From Aquabacterium humicola (GTDB taxonomy: Bacteria; Pseudomonadota; Gammaproteobacteria; Burkholderiales; Burkholderiaceae_C): a DNA stretch of 64,000 bases. Location: NCBI RefSeq assembly GCF_030167915.1, contig NZ_JARGNB010000002.1:1-64000 (forward strand). Reading direction: 5' to 3'. The notes under the pieces are model-generated. The model saw only the letters and a list, made by a program, of their open reading frames with translations, was not told the DNA's origin and made no database searches. Shown here in pieces: positions 38,278 through 49,558 of this stretch; within the stretch, counting starts at the first letter, position 1, and every line of letters starts with the position of its first letter. A program made the position numbers and the translations under genes.

Positions 38278-41200
38278 ATGACAACGCCCCAGGTGATCAA
38301 TGTCAGTGCCGAGGAACTGGACGCTATCCTACGCAGCAAGGCCGAAGAAGTTTCTGAAATCACACTAATCGGAGCGAGTTGTAGTGGGCGTGCACTCCTA
38401 GACCTCTCGTACGACTTGCCAGGCCACCCAATCTATCGTCTTACAAGGTGGAGCAGTTTTCTGCTTGAGACACTGGCGGGGCTCAACCACCTGAACCAAC
38501 TCGTACTAGGGAGCCTCGATCTATCGACCGACGATGTTCGCGCGATAGGGCGGGATTTTGGTCGTTTAAGCAGGCTGGGCGTTTGGGGGGCCGGCCTTGG
38601 AAGAGAAGACGTGCGCGTCATTGCCGAAGGGCTTCCACAATTGACGTCACTGGACCTAAGCGGCAGCGAAATCGGAGATGAAGCGTTGCTCTTCATTGCG
38701 GACGGCCTTGAGCGCCTCGAATCCCTCGACGTTAGTGGAAGCAATATTGGAGAGGCTAGTGCGTGCACCATAGTTCACCGCTTTCCACGACTGAAATCCC
38801 TTCGAATCGGGTCGAACAAGATCGGAGAGAGGGGTGCAGTTGCAATCGCTGAAGGCTTGGGAGCCTTGGAGAGGCTCGATGTTGGACGCAACAAGATTGG
38901 GCAGATTGGTGTGCGCACTATCGCGCAACGTCTTCCGCAGTTGACGTTCTTGGACATCAGCGGCAACGACCTCGGAGAGTGGGGCGCAAAGGAGATCGCC
39001 TCAAGTCTTGTGAATCTGCAGAGGTTGGATATTAGCGACAACAGAATTGGAGCGGCCGGCGCGTCTGCGATTGCTCAGCAGCTCGATCAATTGACTTCGC
39101 TAGAGATCAGTCGGAACGAAATTGGTGTCGCCGGAACGAGCGAAATCACGCGGCGTCTGCGGCGACTCAAATCCTTGAGCATAAGCAAGAACGGCTTAGG
39201 CGAAGACGGCGCCAAAGCCATTAGCCAGAGTCTTCTGCAACTAACCGATCTCAACATTCGCAGCAACGACATAGGCGACGTAGGTGCTACTTTGATCGGT
39301 GGTCATCTTGCCAACCTTGTGTTCCTCGATATCGGCTGGAACAAGATTGGCGAGACTGGTGGTGCAGCCTTGGCTTCAGGGCTGCAGCGGCTAAGGCATC
39401 TCGACATTGCCTGGAACGAAATCGGAAGTGTTGGTTGCGCCTCGATCGCTCAGAAATTGCCGCTCCTCACGGATCTCGACGTCGGCCACAACAGTATCGG
39501 TGACGCTGGCGCAATCGCTGTTGGCTCGTGTTTGCGCGATCTCACACACCTAGAGATCGAAAGCAATGACATCACACATGCAGGTGCAGAAGCGATTGCT
39601 CGACTAAATGGGCTGGTCGAGCTCGCCATCGGTTTCAACGAGATTGGTGATCCCGGGGTGCGTTCAATTGCCACCCAGCTGAATACTCTGACTTCCCTAA
39701 AGATTCACAGCAACAAGATTTCGCGAGATGGCTGCGATGCCATAGGTGCAAGTCTCTCAACGCTCGAGTCTCTTGGGATATCTTATAACAGCATTGGTAG
39801 CGACGGCGCGCGACACATCGGACGACTATCTCGGCTTCGAGATCTCAGTGCCGTAAGGTGCGACATTGATGCCGCAGGCGCGCGAGCGCTGTCTGGAAGC
39901 CTCCGCAAGCTTAGGTTCCTGTCGCTTGATCAAAACAAGATCGGTGATGAGGGAGTTCGGCTGCTTGTCGAGAGGCTTCCAAACTTGCAGTACCTCTCCA
40001 TTGAGGATGGCGGCGTCGGCGACAGTGGGGTCGCCGCGATCGCGCTCAGTAGCTCTATTTCCTACCTCGACCTGTCGAAGAATGAGCGGGTTTCCGACCT
40101 GAGTCCCCTTGCGTCCAATCTGTCACTGAAAAGGCTTCGCGTCGAGGCCACCTCGGTTTCAGATCTCTCGCCTCTCGCCGCGCGAATCGAGAGTGGGTGG
40201 TCAGTTTGTTGGGATTGGTCCTATGAAGGTATTGGGGTAAGAGATTGTCCGCTCGAGATCCCGCCTGTCGAGATCGCCCGGCAAGGGCCAGCCGCTGTTC
40301 TCAACTACTTCACGGAACGTAGGCGCCAGACGGTCGCTCGACTGCACGAAGCCAAGGTGTTGGTCGTTGGCGATGGGGGTGTTGGTAAGACAAGCTTGGT
40401 ACGTCGTCTCTATCAAGTTGATCTTCCACTGCCGGGCGAAGATGAAACAACGCGTGGAATCGTTGTTCATAAGCAGGACTTTGCCGCGGATCATGGTGGC
40501 CAGTTTAGGCTTAACGTCTGGGACTTTGGTGGACAGCAAATCTATCACTCAACGCATCAGTTCTTCTTGACAAAGAGTTCGCTTTACGTGCTGGTCGACG
40601 ACACGCGAAAGAGCGACAAGTCGATCCACGATGAATCCTTCAAATTCTGGCTTGAGGTCGTTGAAACCCTGAGTGACAAGAGCCCACTGTTGATCTTTCA
40701 GAATGAGAAGGGGGGGCGGAGCAAGGCCATCGACATTGCCGGCATCAGAGGGCGCTTTCCGAATGTCGCTGACATCTACTCTGGCAACTTGGAGCACACT
40801 GACTCAGTGAGCCACCTGCGAAAGGCGATTCAGTATTACGTTCAACGGCTTCCTCACGTTGGTAGTGAGGTGCCGGCCATGTGGATCGCCGTGCGGCAAG
40901 CGATTGAAGCGGAAGCTTCGAAAAGGCCGTTCATGACGCTGGAGGAGTACTTTGCGCTTTATGCTTCCTACCTTGAATTTGATCGATCCAGGGCGCTCTA
41001 TCTGAGTCGCTACTTGCACGATCTGGGGGTGTTTTTGCATTTTCAAGACGACTTGCTACTGCGCAAGACGGTGATTTTGCAGAATCAATGGGCGACGGAC
41101 GCAGTGTTTCGCATATTGGATGACGAAGCGATAAAGAAGGCGTTCGGTCGCTTTGCCTTGCAGGACTGCGAGCGCGTTTGGTCGGATGCGCGGTACGACG

Positions 41201-42342
41201 ATATGCACGCCGAGCTTATCGGTCTGATGGGAAAGTTTGAACTTTGCTATCCGCTTCGGGACAGCGACCCAGAGTGTTGGCTAGCTCCGCAGTTGTTGAC
41301 GCCGTCGCTACCCTCCGAGCTTGCCGATTGGGCGGATCCAACCGATCTCGTGGTGCGATTCCGATACACATTCCTTCCTCGTGGACTGGTGAATCGTCTT
41401 ATGGTCCGCCAACATCGCTTCGCGAGGAGGCTGGAATGGTCTTGGGCCCATGGAGCATTCTTTGAGCATGGAAGCACTCAGGCACTAGTGCAGGAGACTC
41501 GGCGAGGCAGCGAAATCGAACTGCGCGCCCGGGGCCCGGAGTCGAAGGAATTGCTAAGTGTGCTTGTAGGCGACTTGGAAACAATCAATGAGACGTTCCA
41601 TGGCTTGCGAGATCGAGTTGAAAAGCTCGTTCCTTGCATTTGCAGCGTTTGCCGAGTGACGACTGATCCTCAGATGTATAGCTTTCCAGAACTCGTTGAA
41701 AGGAAGAGGAGAAGCAAAGGGACGATCGAGTGCCGGCGAGAGCCCTATGAAGACGTGAGCGTTCGGGAACTGCTCGACGGAATTGAGGTCGGGCTTCTGC
41801 CGGATTGGGCGAGCGCGCCTGAGGAGTTGCGACCAACGCCTGGCCCCGCAACGCGGGAGATCACGATCTTCTTGGCGTCGTCGAGTGACCTGAATGATGA
41901 CCGGGATGAGTTTGAGCGCTACTTCAGGCAGCAGAACGACAGGCTTCGTCGACAGGGGGTCTACTTGAGGATTGTGCGTTGGGAGAGTTATCTCGACGCA
42001 ATGTCCGAGACTCGGTTGCAAGACGACTACAACAAGGAAGTGCGGGCATGCGACGTCTTTGTGAGCCTTTTCGAGACAAAGGCCGGCGCTTTCAGCGCGG
42101 AGGAGTTCAGCGTTGCGTTCGATCAGTTCCGGCGAACCGGAAAGCCACGGATCTATACCTATTTCAAGGAAGCAAATGTGTCCTTGAGTCGCGCAAAGCG
42201 GCAGGATTTGGAGTCACTTTGGGCGTTCAAGGACAAGTTGACAGAGCTTGGTCACTTCTTCACCTCCTACGAGAGCTCAGAGCACCTCAAGCGCCATTTT
42301 CGCGACCAGATTGATCTGCTGCTGGACCTCTCACGTGAATAA
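38278..42342 (+). CDS. LRR-Roc-COR GTPase with TIR-like/DUF4062-like C-terminus (NLR-like protein)
   Basis: The 1354-residue protein starts behind TTGGAG. Residues about 69-590 contain about 21 leucine-rich repeats of 24-25 residues (pattern LxxLxxLDIxxNxIGxxGAxxIA), then two shorter repeats. A Roc GTPase follows, with P-loop GDGGVGKT at 698-705 and the G3 motif DFGGQQ at 749-754; the G4 position reads QNEKGG. A COR region covers about 870-1180. The last 160 residues begin EITIFLASSSDLNDDRDEF and contain YNKEVRACDVFVSLF, a TIR-like/DUF4062-like module found at the ends of bacterial STAND and Roco proteins. GC content and codon use are visibly lower than in the neighbours, indicating transfer. 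An immune receptor role is inferred from architecture. Confidence 0.85.
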   Translation: MTTPQVINVSAEELDAILRSKAEEVSEITLIGASCSGRALLDLSYDLPGHPIYRLTRWSSFLLETLAGLNHLNQLVLGSLDLSTDDVRAIGRDFGRLSRLGVWGAGLGREDVRVIAEGLPQLTSLDLSGSEIGDEALLFIADGLERLESLDVSGSNIGEASACTIVHRFPRLKSLRIGSNKIGERGAVAIAEGLGALERLDVGRNKIGQIGVRTIAQRLPQLTFLDISGNDLGEWGAKEIASSLVNLQRLDISDNRIGAAGASAIAQQLDQLTSLEISRNEIGVAGTSEITRRLRRLKSLSISKNGLGEDGAKAISQSLLQLTDLNIRSNDIGDVGATLIGGHLANLVFLDIGWNKIGETGGAALASGLQRLRHLDIAWNEIGSVGCASIAQKLPLLTDLDVGHNSIGDAGAIAVGSCLRDLTHLEIESNDITHAGAEAIARLNGLVELAIGFNEIGDPGVRSIATQLNTLTSLKIHSNKISRDGCDAIGASLSTLESLGISYNSIGSDGARHIGRLSRLRDLSAVRCDIDAAGARALSGSLRKLRFLSLDQNKIGDEGVRLLVERLPNLQYLSIEDGGVGDSGVAAIALSSSISYLDLSKNERVSDLSPLASNLSLKRLRVEATSVSDLSPLAARIESGWSVCWDWSYEGIGVRDCPLEIPPVEIARQGPAAVLNYFTERRRQTVARLHEAKVLVVGDGGVGKTSLVRRLYQVDLPLPGEDETTRGIVVHKQDFAADHGGQFRLNVWDFGGQQIYHSTHQFFLTKSSLYVLVDDTRKSDKSIHDESFKFWLEVVETLSDKSPLLIFQNEKGGRSKAIDIAGIRGRFPNVADIYSGNLEHTDSVSHLRKAIQYYVQRLPHVGSEVPAMWIAVRQAIEAEASKRPFMTLEEYFALYASYLEFDRSRALYLSRYLHDLGVFLHFQDDLLLRKTVILQNQWATDAVFRILDDEAIKKAFGRFALQDCERVWSDARYDDMHAELIGLMGKFELCYPLRDSDPECWLAPQLLTPSLPSELADWADPTDLVVRFRYTFLPRGLVNRLMVRQHRFARRLEWSWAHGAFFEHGSTQALVQETRRGSEIELRARGPESKELLSVLVGDLETINETFHGLRDRVEKLVPCICSVCRVTTDPQMYSFPELVERKRRSKGTIECRREPYEDVSVRELLDGIEVGLLPDWASAPEELRPTPGPATREITIFLASSSDLNDDRDEFERYFRQQNDRLRRQGVYLRIVRWESYLDAMSETRLQDDYNKEVRACDVFVSLFETKAGAFSAEEFSVAFDQFRRTGKPRIYTYFKEANVSLSRAKRQDLESLWAFKDKLTELGHFFTSYESSEHLKRHFRDQIDLLLDLSRE

Positions 42343-42755
42343 GGCGATGACTAGATCGGGGGGGCAGGTCATCAGCACGAGCGCAAGTGCCAGCCATGGT
42401 CGGTGCGATCTGGCCCATGCAGCCAAGCTCCGCGGAAGGGTTCGGCTCTACCGATACCGCGCCGCCGAGATGAACTGCCCGAAGGTCTCGCACCACACGA
42501 TCACCGTCGTGTAGCGCCCGGGGTCGATGCCCGCGGGCACCGGCACGATGAAGTGGTCGAAGGTCTTCACGTCGCCGACGCGCTGCATCGTGGCCTTCAG
42601 GCGCCGGAAGTCCGCCTCGGTCTCGACAAACTCGGGCGACAGGTAGAGCTTGTAGTCCGGCCCGGGCGCCAGCCTGCCGTCCAGGCTGATGCGTAAGCTC
42701 CCCCGCTGAGGGGACAGTTTGAAAATGGAGACTTCCGCATCTTTGAGGCAGAGCG

Positions 42756-43022
42756 ATGAGGAAGTCCAGGTTCACGGAAGCGCAGATCTTGGCGGTCTTG
42801 CGCGAAGGCGAGGCAGGCATGCCTGTAGCGGAGGTCTGCCGCAAGCACGGCCTCAGCACGGCGACGTACTACCAGTGGAAGAGCAAGTACGCGGGCATGT
42901 CGGCCAACGAGCTGAAGAAGGTCAAGGAGCTGGAGGCCGAGAACGCCCGGCTCAAGCGGATGTACGCCGAGCTGGCGTTGGAGAACGCAGCCATCAAGGA
43001 CGTGCTGTCCCGAAAGCTGTGA
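42756..43022 (+). CDS. IS3-family transposase OrfA
   Basis: The 88-residue protein has an N-terminal helix-turn-helix for binding the element's ends (MRKSRFTEAQILAVLREGE, VCRKHGLSTATYYQWK) followed by a leucine-zipper-like helix (KVKELEAENARLKRMYAEL). This is the usual OrfA of the IS51/IS407-like branch. Near its end, CGAAAG (43011-43016) could allow a -1 slip into orfB to make the fused OrfAB transposase. Confidence 0.93.
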   Translation: MRKSRFTEAQILAVLREGEAGMPVAEVCRKHGLSTATYYQWKSKYAGMSANELKKVKELEAENARLKRMYAELALENAAIKDVLSRKL

Positions 43023-43876
43023 CGCCGACCGCCAGGCGAGCTGCCGTGAAGATCATGGTTGAAGAACACGATCTGTCGCGCGCTCGAGCCTGCAGGGCCG
43101 TGGGCCTGCCGCGGTCGGCGCTGTACAAGCCCACAACGGACCAGTTAGCCAAGGATGCGCCGCTCATTGATGCGATCAACGCTGTCGTCGACAAGCGACC
43201 ACGCTGGGGCTTCTGGAAGTGCTTTGAGCGGCTGCGCTCGGACGGTCATGGCTGGAACCACAAGCGCGTATATCGCGTGTACTGCGGGATGCGTCTGAAC
43301 CTCAAGCGCAGGGCCAAGCGTCGGCTCATCACACGCGAGCGCCAGCCCCTTCTGACGAGCCACGAAGTCAACCGGGTCTGGGCGCTGGACTTCATGCGTG
43401 ACACGCTCTATGACGGACGGCCGTTCAGAACGCTCAACGTCATCGACGAAGGCAACCGCGAGGCGCTGCGGATCGAGTGCGGCACATCGATTCCATCGGC
43501 GCGAGTCGTGCGCGTCATGGACCAACTCATCGAGGTCTACGGCAAGCCGGAAGCCATCCGGCTCGACAACGGGCCGGAACTGACAGCGGACAAGTTCACC
43601 GACTGGGCCAAGGAGCATGGGATCAAGCTGCTGTTCATCCAACCCGGCAAGCCCAACCAGAACGCCTTCGTCGAGCGCTTCAACCGCAGCTTCCGCGAGG
43701 AGGTGCTGAACGCATGGCTGTTCAATGCGGTCAGCGAGGCACAGGCGGCGGCTGATGAATGGCTGGTCGACTACAACGAATGCCGGCCCCACGAGTCCCT
43801 GGGCAACGTGCCGCCGGCGGTGTTCCGGCCCAGGGTGTTCAACGCGGAAGTCTCTACTTCTGAACTGTCTACTTGA
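43013..43876 (+). CDS. IS3-family transposase OrfB (DDE integrase core)
   Basis: The frame is -1 relative to OrfA and overlaps its end; the start given is the putative slip site, while GTG at about 43047 could serve as an independent start. The catalytic triad of the integrase core is present: Asp in WALDFMRD, Asp in AIRLDNGPE and Glu in NAFVERFNRSFREEVLN, followed by the typical YNECRPHESLG ending. The frame is uninterrupted, so the enzyme is probably active. Confidence 0.92.
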   Translation, partial: KAVTPTARRAAVKIMVEEHDLSRARACRAVGLPRSALYKPTTDQLAKDAPLIDAINAVVDKRPRWGFWKCFERLRSDGHGWNHKRVYRVYCGMRLNLKRRAKRRLITRERQPLLTSHEVNRVWALDFMRDTLYDGRPFRTLNVIDEGNREALRIECGTSIPSARVVRVMDQLIEVYGKPEAIRLDNGPELTADKFTDWAKEHGIKLLFIQPGKPNQNAFVERFNRSFREEVLNAWLFNAVSEAQAAADEWLVDYNECRPHESLGNVPPAVFRPRVFNAEVSTSELST

Positions 43877-47056: not shown

Positions 47057-47566
47057 TCAAGCCGGGTCGGCGGCGTCGCGCGCGGTGCGTGCCGCCAGCT
47101 TCAGCAGCGTCGGCATGCGCCGCTTGCCGTGCATCGTGCGCACGCGGGCCTTCGCCGCGCCGAGGTCGAGGCCGGCGCAGGTGACCAGCACCGGCCGGCC
47201 TTCTTCCTCGCGGTGGACCTCGAACTGCGCCGGCAGGCCGCGCAGCGCTGCAGCCGAGATGCCGATGATCGGGATGCGCCCGCCCAGCGCATCGAACAGC
47301 GCGCGGCCCCATCCCGGCGTCTCCGCGGCGTCGATGTGCACCGGGCCGTCGATCACGATGGTGTCGGGCTGCAGCCCGTGCCGGCCCAGCAGCTGCGCCA
47401 GCGCTGCCGCTTCGCGCAGGTCGAGCTCACCCGGTGCCGGCTTCTCCAGACCGTCGATGCGCGACGTCACCGTGCGCAAGGCTTCGCGCGCGTCCCACTC
47501 GTCGAAGGTCACCGCGGCGGCCCAGGCGACATCGTCTTTAAGATGAACGGCGGCAGCGAGTTTCAT
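47057..47566 (-). CDS. endonuclease V-like protein with degenerate active site
   Basis: The 169-residue protein matches the endonuclease V fold in order: AAVTFDEWDAREALRTVTSRI, GELDLREAAALAQLL, PDTIVIDGPVHID, IPIIGISAAALRG and MHGKRRMPTLLKLAAR. Endonuclease V nicks DNA near deoxyinosine using a D-E-D-H set. The glutamate in LRE and the aspartate in VIDG are kept. The first aspartate position is occupied by alanine (LAAAVHLK) and the late histidine region reads VTCAGLD, so normal catalysis is doubtful. The gene is native-looking in composition and divergent from the SEFIR gene. Confidence 0.65.
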   Translation of the reverse strand: MKLAAAVHLKDDVAWAAAVTFDEWDAREALRTVTSRIDGLEKPAPGELDLREAAALAQLLGRHGLQPDTIVIDGPVHIDAAETPGWGRALFDALGGRIPIIGISAAALRGLPAQFEVHREEEGRPVLVTCAGLDLGAAKARVRTMHGKRRMPTLLKLAARTARDAADPA

Positions 47567-47824: not shown

Positions 47825-49558
47825 ATGCCCAAGCGCGTCTTCGTGAGCTACAGCCATGAATCAGACCTGCACAGTCAGTGGGTGCTCGATCTTGCGGGTT
47901 CGCTCAGGAAGCGGGGGCTGGAGTCCATCATCGACCGGTACGTCATCCCGGACGTACCACTTCCGCAGTGGATGCAGAACCAGATTGAAAGCGCGGAGTA
48001 CACGCTGTTTGTCTGTACTCCGCGCTATAAGCTGAGATTCGAGGGCAAGGACAAGTCCTCCCAGGGAGTGACATGGGAGGCAATGATCGCCAATCACGTG
48101 CTCTACAGCAATCGAACTAGGAATCATCGCTTCATTGCCGTGATCCCTGACTCCGGTAGCGAAGATGACATCCCGCTGCCGTTCAGGCAGTTCAAGTTCT
48201 ACACGATTCCCGCTCAATTCGACCTCCTTGTCGGGCACCTCAATGGCGAGCCCGAAGTCTTGCCACCTCCAGTGGAAATTCCGGTCGCTGTTTCTGACGC
48301 GAGCTCATTGGCGCGCGAGGCCGCCGAGACCGTTCCGGTCGTAATCGAGACGGATGGCGTACCCAACATTGACGCAATGGTTGTTGCCGAGGTCAATGCG
48401 CCGGTGTTGGGCTTCGTCTGCGACTATGCGGTAGTGTCGACGCGGGCCGGACCTGAAGTGCCGGTCTGGGACAATCAGGTGTTTTTTGATCGGCCACTCC
48501 TGAGAGGTCTGAAGCGCGTAGAGCCACAGCAATCGTTCATGGCTGTCATCGAGGCTAGCTCAAGAGAGCCCGTGTGCGTTACTGCGAGAACTAGGCTGTA
48601 CATCCACTCGACAGTTGGTCACGGCTCCCAAGTGAACGCAAACGACCCGATCGGCAAGATCTACATCCCGAAGGCGAATCTGATTCATCCGCCATTTTCT
48701 ACGACCAGGGGACAGACGTACTCATCATCGTTGAAGTACACGCCGATACTTGCCGCGAGCCTATGGAAACTCGGTGCTGATCAAGCCAATCGACCACCTT
48801 ACATCCTTGAATGCGAATCAATCGGTCAATCCGGCTTGTCGGCCGTCCTGGCGAAGACCGCGGGACTCTTCTCGCCTGCTGATACCCTCCAGATCGGAAT
48901 GAAAGTCAGAAGGGGAGCAAGACTTGGAACGATCAGAGATGGCGTGGACACCGACGACGTAGCGGCTCCAAAAGCGGGAACGATTGCGCACGTTCACGTC
49001 AAAGAGGGCTCTCCGGTTCACGTAGGAAGGACGTTGGTCACCGTTCGTACGTCCGCGACGGAACTGAGCCTCCTGCTGTCGCCGCTCGTGTCAGCTCAAC
49101 CGGCGTGGTTCGATCTGGCTTCACCGATCTCTGGAGTGATGCATCCGACCCTTCGTCCGGGCACTGCGGTGAGCCCCAGATCCGTTATTTGTCAGGTCAG
49201 GGGCAACAATGTCGTCGTCAGTCTTCGCATCGACATCGCGGAAGGCCAGCTGATGGCGTACCACAAGCAAGGAGGAGAAAGGGTGCAGTTTGGTGATCGT
49301 CTCGCCAGTGTGCTCGGAGTCGGCCTCATCATTCGGGCGCCTCTGCTGGGTACGTTCTATCGCGCGGCGTCTCCCGGTGCGCAGCCGTTCGCCACGGTCG
49401 GCGCACGCTTGCGCGCTGGTGAGCCGGCTTACATCGTCGAGGCGTTGAAGATCATGAACGAAATCGAGATGCCGTTTGACGCGGTGATTGCAGAAATCCT
49501 CGTTGAGGACGGTCAGGGGATCGGCTGGAACCAGCCGATCATGAAGCTCATCGTCTAG
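47825..49558 (+). CDS. SEFIR-domain protein fused to biotinyl-like modules and a C-terminal biotin-carrier domain
   Basis: The 577-residue protein starts at MPKRVFVSYSHESD; an ATG two codons earlier is possible. Residues 1-140 are a SEFIR (TIR-related) domain: LHSQWVLDLAGSLRKRGL, LPQWMQNQIESAEYTLFVCTP and QGVTWEAMIANHVL. Residues about 250-290, 350-410 and 430-500 look like partial barrel-sandwich (biotinyl/lipoyl) folds, such as VAAPKAGTIAHVHVKEGSPV. Residues 500-577 are a full biotin-carrier domain resembling AccB: RAPLLGTFYRAASPGA and VEALKIMNEIE. Lys542 is exactly 35 residues from the end, the standard biotinylation distance. Base composition is lower in GC than the neighbours. The stop overlaps the convergent NMO stop codon. 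Function unknown. Confidence 0.85.
   Translation: MPKRVFVSYSHESDLHSQWVLDLAGSLRKRGLESIIDRYVIPDVPLPQWMQNQIESAEYTLFVCTPRYKLRFEGKDKSSQGVTWEAMIANHVLYSNRTRNHRFIAVIPDSGSEDDIPLPFRQFKFYTIPAQFDLLVGHLNGEPEVLPPPVEIPVAVSDASSLAREAAETVPVVIETDGVPNIDAMVVAEVNAPVLGFVCDYAVVSTRAGPEVPVWDNQVFFDRPLLRGLKRVEPQQSFMAVIEASSREPVCVTARTRLYIHSTVGHGSQVNANDPIGKIYIPKANLIHPPFSTTRGQTYSSSLKYTPILAASLWKLGADQANRPPYILECESIGQSGLSAVLAKTAGLFSPADTLQIGMKVRRGARLGTIRDGVDTDDVAAPKAGTIAHVHVKEGSPVHVGRTLVTVRTSATELSLLLSPLVSAQPAWFDLASPISGVMHPTLRPGTAVSPRSVICQVRGNNVVVSLRIDIAEGQLMAYHKQGGERVQFGDRLASVLGVGLIIRAPLLGTFYRAASPGAQPFATVGARLRAGEPAYIVEALKIMNEIEMPFDAVIAEILVEDGQGIGWNQPIMKLIV

Follow-up and report, generated by a model that had tools for sequence, protein, structure and literature searches.

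Bacterial SEFIR domains are listed as NAD+-depleting phage defence in passages of three papers (PMC12774641, PMC12322248 and PMC11559045). The bSEFIR system (PADLOC PDLC03957; SEFIR defence is listed in PMC12774641 and PMC12322248) is a stand-alone gene whose product carries an N-terminal SEFIR domain with an invariant Glu. The protein analysed here, from Aquabacterium humicola, is like bSEFIR in these respects but differs from it beyond the SEFIR domain: the bSEFIR model is unmatched beyond position 197 of 412, and the partner of the SEFIR domain is of the biotinyl type. With AccB/BCCP (TIGR00531) the protein shares a biotinyl domain with a thumb and a lysine motif, at 45–46% identity to the AccB of the host. 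Unlike AccB, this domain is fused to SEFIR, matches the biotinyl end of the model only and stays below the equivalog cut-off, carries Leu541, Ala553 and Gly567, and occurs in a genome that has a separate AccB. The nearest SEFIR domain by tree path (42% identity) belongs to a protein of Nannocystis pusilla that differs from ours in having an EAD1 module at its C-terminal end; the tree path is long, at 1.93 changes per column.

The gene lies in a 64,000-nucleotide stretch of the host genome, which is referred to here as the window. Our preferred reading, to which we assign a probability of roughly 0.4, is that it encodes a SEFIR effector, horizontally acquired and probably stand-alone, whose biotinyl part is an arm for regulation or docking.

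Reading frame and genomic setting

The fusion gene (47825–49558, plus strand) is an open reading frame that runs from ATG to TAG and encodes 577 amino acids; an in-frame ATG two codons upstream of 47825 is an equally possible start. The frame is unbroken across all 577 codons, and the other five frames over the same interval hold 9 to 27 stops each. GC content by codon position is 0.61/0.45/0.68, and the coding-like order 1 > 2 < 3 is kept by five of five segments of the gene. With Pfam matches at both ends of this frame, the original prediction that a SEFIR domain and an AccB-like biotinyl domain are joined in one protein was borne out. A mis-read gene or a plain AccB was ruled out, since the frame is continuous and coding-like and AccB is encoded separately in the genome.

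The gene coincides with a dip in GC content that spans about 2 kb, at 0.578 for the gene against 0.70 for the window, which agrees with the lower GC content that had been claimed. A search of 20 other genomes from the genus, several of which are incomplete, found no full-length match. Together, the low GC content and this absence support a horizontal arrival of the gene, as had also been proposed. In the two genus genomes compared, the genes that flank the fusion gene are not adjacent, lying about 126 kb apart on the same contig in one (G143) and on different contigs in the other (G496), so that a clean empty site was not found in either.

The upstream neighbour is a 169-aa gene on the minus strand (47057–47566). 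Its matches to Endonuclease V and Endo_dU are sub-threshold only (0.034 and 0.045), and DNA related to this gene or its surroundings occurs in six of the 20 other genus genomes. Downstream, a nitronate monooxygenase gene (PF03060, 68.4 bits over a cut-off of 28) converges on the fusion gene, and the two overlap by 4 bases at their stop codons. Genes of acyl-CoA type, read by eye, lie downstream. No known defence gene adjoins the fusion gene, the immediate neighbours being the nitronate monooxygenase, 169-aa, MFS and GntR genes.

About 4 to 9.5 kb upstream, an LRR-Roc-COR gene of low GC content is followed by a transposase ORF. Between these ORFs (38278–43876) and the low-GC patch are about 3.7 kb of higher-GC DNA with the GntR and MFS genes. 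The original prediction had placed the gene at the edge of an accessory block; given the intervening higher-GC DNA, this placement holds only with a reservation. The ROCO protein itself (1354 aa, 38278–42342, plus strand, GC 0.55) has LRRs, a Roc GTPase and COR-A/COR-B, and its C-terminal stretch matches PADLOC PDC-S60 (1.6e-10) and, weakly and below cut-off, DUF4062 (0.031). The transposase-like ORF (42719–43876, plus strand), just 3' of the ROCO gene, combines HTH_21 with an rve_3 integrase core.

The N-terminal SEFIR domain

Pfam, PADLOC and a predicted structure place the SEFIR domain, a probable TIR-like NADase effector by analogy, at residues 4–139 (47834–48241, plus strand). The Pfam SEFIR match (PF08357, E 3.2e-12) scored 47.4 bits and exceeded the curated cut-off of 23, and TIR_2 also matched the protein (E 2.2e-11). 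Sequence searches further matched the N-terminal part to the bacterial SEFIR structures 5y8e and 5y8f (3.6e-10). The PADLOC bSEFIR model was matched at E 1.6e-33 over model positions 39–197 only, that is, over 159 of 412 positions and not over its full length; by family, this match makes a defence role of the fusion protein plausible.

When AlphaFold2 was run with 31 relatives aligned, 122 residues reached a pLDDT of at least 90, and ten-residue block means across residues 1–150 were 84–98; a single-sequence run on the fusion protein gave a mean pLDDT of 31.5. The four top PDB fold matches of the SEFIR model all come from the IL-17RA/RB/ACT1 assembly, as individual chains with a target TM of 0.71–0.79. 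Those that follow are mostly TIR domains, including those of SPARTA, SARM1, BtTir and AbTir, all of which are NAD-cleaving; the matches also include one flavoprotein and the adaptor-type TIR domains found in Toll-like receptors. Neither 5y8e nor 5y8f appears among the 50 PDB fold matches listed. The confident model and its matches to both SEFIR and TIR structures indicate a TIR-like fold, and the claim of a TIR-related SEFIR domain at residues 1–140 held.

Glu85 (codon 48077–48079, plus strand) is invariant among the aligned SEFIR relatives, in 4/4, 48/48, 48/48 and 32/32 rows of four alignments whose row sets overlap; the first rows of the two 48-row alignments number it E145 and E91. By analogy with TIR NADases, we infer that Glu85 is the catalytic Glu, and the domain is probably NAD-cleaving.

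The top structural matches are adaptor SEFIR domains of IL-17R/ACT1. Together with the acyl-CoA-type genes downstream, they would suit a protein in which SEFIR is a non-enzymatic adaptor and whose role is to regulate or localise a biotin-dependent carboxylase, not to defend against phage. We regard such a protein as very unlikely here: Glu85 is retained as in SEFIR relatives, the neighbouring genes lie apart in both genus genomes compared, and bacterial SEFIR is reported to be NAD+-depleting in passages of PMC12774641, PMC12322248 and PMC11559045.

The biotinyl-type C-terminal half

The last domain, segment D (residues 503–575; 49331–49549, plus strand), is AccB-like and carries an SPGA 'thumb' and the motif EALKIMNEIE. 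Biotin_lipoyl (PF00364) matched it with E 1.5e-19 and 70 bits, over the curated cut-off of 22.1. The best NCBIfam model was BCCP (TIGR00531), with E 9.9e-26 over residues 502–574, although its 91.1 bits did not reach the AccB equivalog cut-off of 115.2. Solved BCCP structures also matched the C-terminal end by sequence (best 4.6e-15). The AccB-like biotinyl domain of the original prediction was thus recovered, below the level of an AccB equivalog. A recent origin of segment D by capture of AccB from the host itself was ruled out, the two being only 45–46% identical.

Lys542 (codon 49448–49450, plus strand) is the predicted biotin attachment site by motif and by distance to the end. It occupies the hairpin-motif position and is followed by 35 residues; in the AccB of the host, 34 residues follow the lysine, as counted on the translation. 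The lysine motif reads VEALKIMNEIE in the fusion, IEAMKIMNEIE in host AccB and VEAMKMMNQIE in the BCCP of 1a6x/1bdo, with K542 in register, and the thumb reads FYRAASPGA in the fusion and FYRASSPGA in host AccB. Both the position of Lys542 and the AccB-like character of FYRAASPGA had been predicted correctly. The domain departs from AccB near the lysine, with Leu541 for Met at –1 and Ala553 for the turn Gly, and has Gly567 at a position that is Glu in both of the AccBs compared. We take a Glu at this place to help ligase recognition; a literature search on its role for the ligase found no paper. Biotin_lipoyl matches number 16 in the host genome, and two of these fall in the fusion gene. The genome also has one BPL_LplA_LipB match, which is a biotin-protein ligase (birA_ligase, TIGR00121, 140.9 bits, cut-off 83.1).

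The region between the two end domains was scanned with Pfam and with a home-made biotinyl HMM, for which 12 biotin/lipoyl stretches from the host genome were used. Segment B (residues 356–410; 48890–49054, plus strand) is biotinyl/lipoyl-like and significant with the HMM (c-E 3.2e-7), and when the middle region was searched with Pfam, only the second half of the Biotin_lipoyl model matched the segment, at 6.1e-7. Segment C (residues 445–495; 49157–49309, plus strand) is weakly biotinyl-like (c-E 0.0027) and matched no family in the Pfam scan of the middle region. Segment A (about residues 184–284; 48374–48676, plus strand), a possible barrel-sandwich remnant by eye, has a single short HMM match at residues 184–207 (c-E 0.034) and likewise matched no family in that scan. 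The several barrel-sandwich-like segments of the original prediction therefore stood for B, were weak for C and lacked support for A. By sequence, a fair count of barrel-sandwich domains is two sure and perhaps three. Residues 169–577 mostly have a pLDDT below 50 in both AlphaFold2 predictions, the single-sequence run and that with 31 relatives. In the lysine column of the HMM alignment, B has Val374 and C has Asn462, which leaves the last domain as the only possible carrier of biotin.

The missing lysine in B, and probably in C, also speaks for the strongest rival to our reading, which is that the C-terminal half acts purely as a barrel-sandwich scaffold, either for oligomerisation or to bind a partner, peptide or ligand. 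The lysine would then be inherited, and biotin either unneeded or not attached in the cell. HlyD-type adaptors use barrel-sandwich folds as plain scaffolds, and weak HlyD-type Pfam matches were obtained in the middle region; the substitutions around K542 (Leu541, Ala553 and Gly567) point the same way. Drift would, however, be expected to erode features such as the AccB thumb and the E-A-x-K-x-M-N motif, both of which the last domain alone has kept. We consider such a scaffold possible but somewhat doubtful.

Relatives of the fusion protein and a possible mechanism

A search for a second fusion covered 96 SEFIR ORFs from 90 other loci, obtained by a SEFIR alignment scan from genome contigs (79 loci, from the best 80 of 291 confirmed) and viral contigs (11 loci). 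None of the 96, ten of which are cut by the end of the stretch, matched the home-made biotinyl HMM at E 0.01. Of all 6239 ORFs of those loci a single one, a non-SEFIR ORF in locus L060, matched at 0.01. Pfam likewise gave no biotin/lipoyl match at 0.01 for the 11 non-window SEFIR proteins found in genome searches, some of which are cut by the fetched stretch and three of which recur among the 96 ORFs as identical tree rows.

Within the order, nine of the 300 genomes in the sample have SEFIR, counting the host. Searches with the protein gave the host as the only match in the family (299 genomes), two matches in the genus (21 genomes), of which the non-host one is SEFIR only, and two in the class (369 genomes), the other being SEFIR with a STAND-type NTPase. 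Searches with the middle region gave eight matches in the order (200 genomes), seven of them partial at E 1.3e-4 or weaker, seven in the phylum (398 genomes), six of them partial at 3.8e-6 or weaker, and a single partial match (9.5e-4) in 50 SEFIR-bearing genomes, host excluded. Across all sampled genomes, middle-region matches outside the host are partial at most. These genome samples overlap, and the family, order, class and phylum searches scored the best 3 to 10 candidates per genome at most. With tblastn, 195 plasmid and 15 phage records matched, none over 80% of the query. Scans of genome and viral contigs, which depend on exact short peptides, returned single-domain or partial matches only, apart from the gene itself; viral-contig scans with the biotinyl end alone confirmed nothing at all and are therefore without a positive control.

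In the collections searched we thus found no second independent member of a SEFIR-biotinyl family. We recognised no paper on SEFIR or TIR fused to biotin/lipoyl domains among the titles and abstract beginnings returned by literature searches. The check for co-occurrence of SEFIR and biotinyl_lipoyl that the original prediction proposed thus yielded no second fusion among the 96 ORFs and 11 proteins, and its claim that the fusion is undescribed stands within these collections and this literature. We conclude that the fusion is real, unusual in architecture and, in these searches, a singleton. A singleton of low GC content with no homologue found would also be expected from a chance fusion of acquired pieces, decaying or free of any selected function; this is unlikely, in that 577 codons are open, each segment is coding-like and both end domains exceed their Pfam cut-offs.

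In the SEFIR tree, the domain from the window groups in a clade of three rows with L045, the N. pusilla protein, and L060 (support 96/88, long branches). The SEFIR protein of L060 has no Pfam partner at 0.01. A SEFIR–protein kinase fusion from an Oligoflexia bacterium (L082, 2098–3738, plus strand) adjoins this clade (85/76). The highest identity to the SEFIR domain of the window in the tree set is 49% over 117 columns (L054), and a SEFIR protein from the host's genus (L011) ends in CarboxypepD_reg. Pfam partners among the 96 SEFIR ORFs include AAA_16, NB-ARC or NACHT, TPR and FGE-sulfatase, among others (the top 25 of 45 and the top 25 of 56 families). On these sequence assignments, SEFIR proteins vary in what fills their C-terminal slot, which may hold STAND NTPase/TPR, EAD1, kinase or CarboxypepD_reg modules. 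Our description of the biotinyl half as a sensor or docking arm rests mainly on this variation.

A SEFIR effector with such an arm might work as follows. SEFIR copies that are brought together would cleave NAD+, and the biotinyl-type half would serve as an arm for regulation or docking, taking the place that STAND/TPR, EAD1, kinase or CarboxypepD_reg modules have in relatives. The host ligase would biotinylate the last domain, which could then bind a carboxylase-type partner or report the state of that partner. If this contact were disturbed, for example by phage infection, the SEFIR domains would be released or clustered. Since no homologue with the same architecture was found, neither half of this mechanism has conservation behind it. 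A more specific version strikes us as rather unlikely: a SEFIR NADase is restrained by its own biotinylated domain, this domain senses or mimics acetyl-CoA carboxylase or the supply of biotin, and the cell dies or is arrested when a phage disturbs them. The roles suggested in the original prediction, namely sensing of biotin or of carboxylase state and imitation of the host carboxylase as bait, are hypothetical. Should the last domain be biotinylated and govern the SEFIR half, the protein would be a defence protein that reads a cofactor or the machinery of fatty-acid synthesis; neither is known to us as an immune trigger. Even without biotin, barrel-sandwich domains would join the modules that SEFIR effectors plug into.

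Two further arrangements were seen among the SEFIR proteins collected. A domain like the formylglycine-generating enzyme (FGE-sulfatase) is present in 10 of the 96 SEFIR ORFs (5/48 in each of two alignments). In L040, SEFIR is at the C-terminal end and the N-terminal part is a weak Macro domain match (0.0046, below cut-off).
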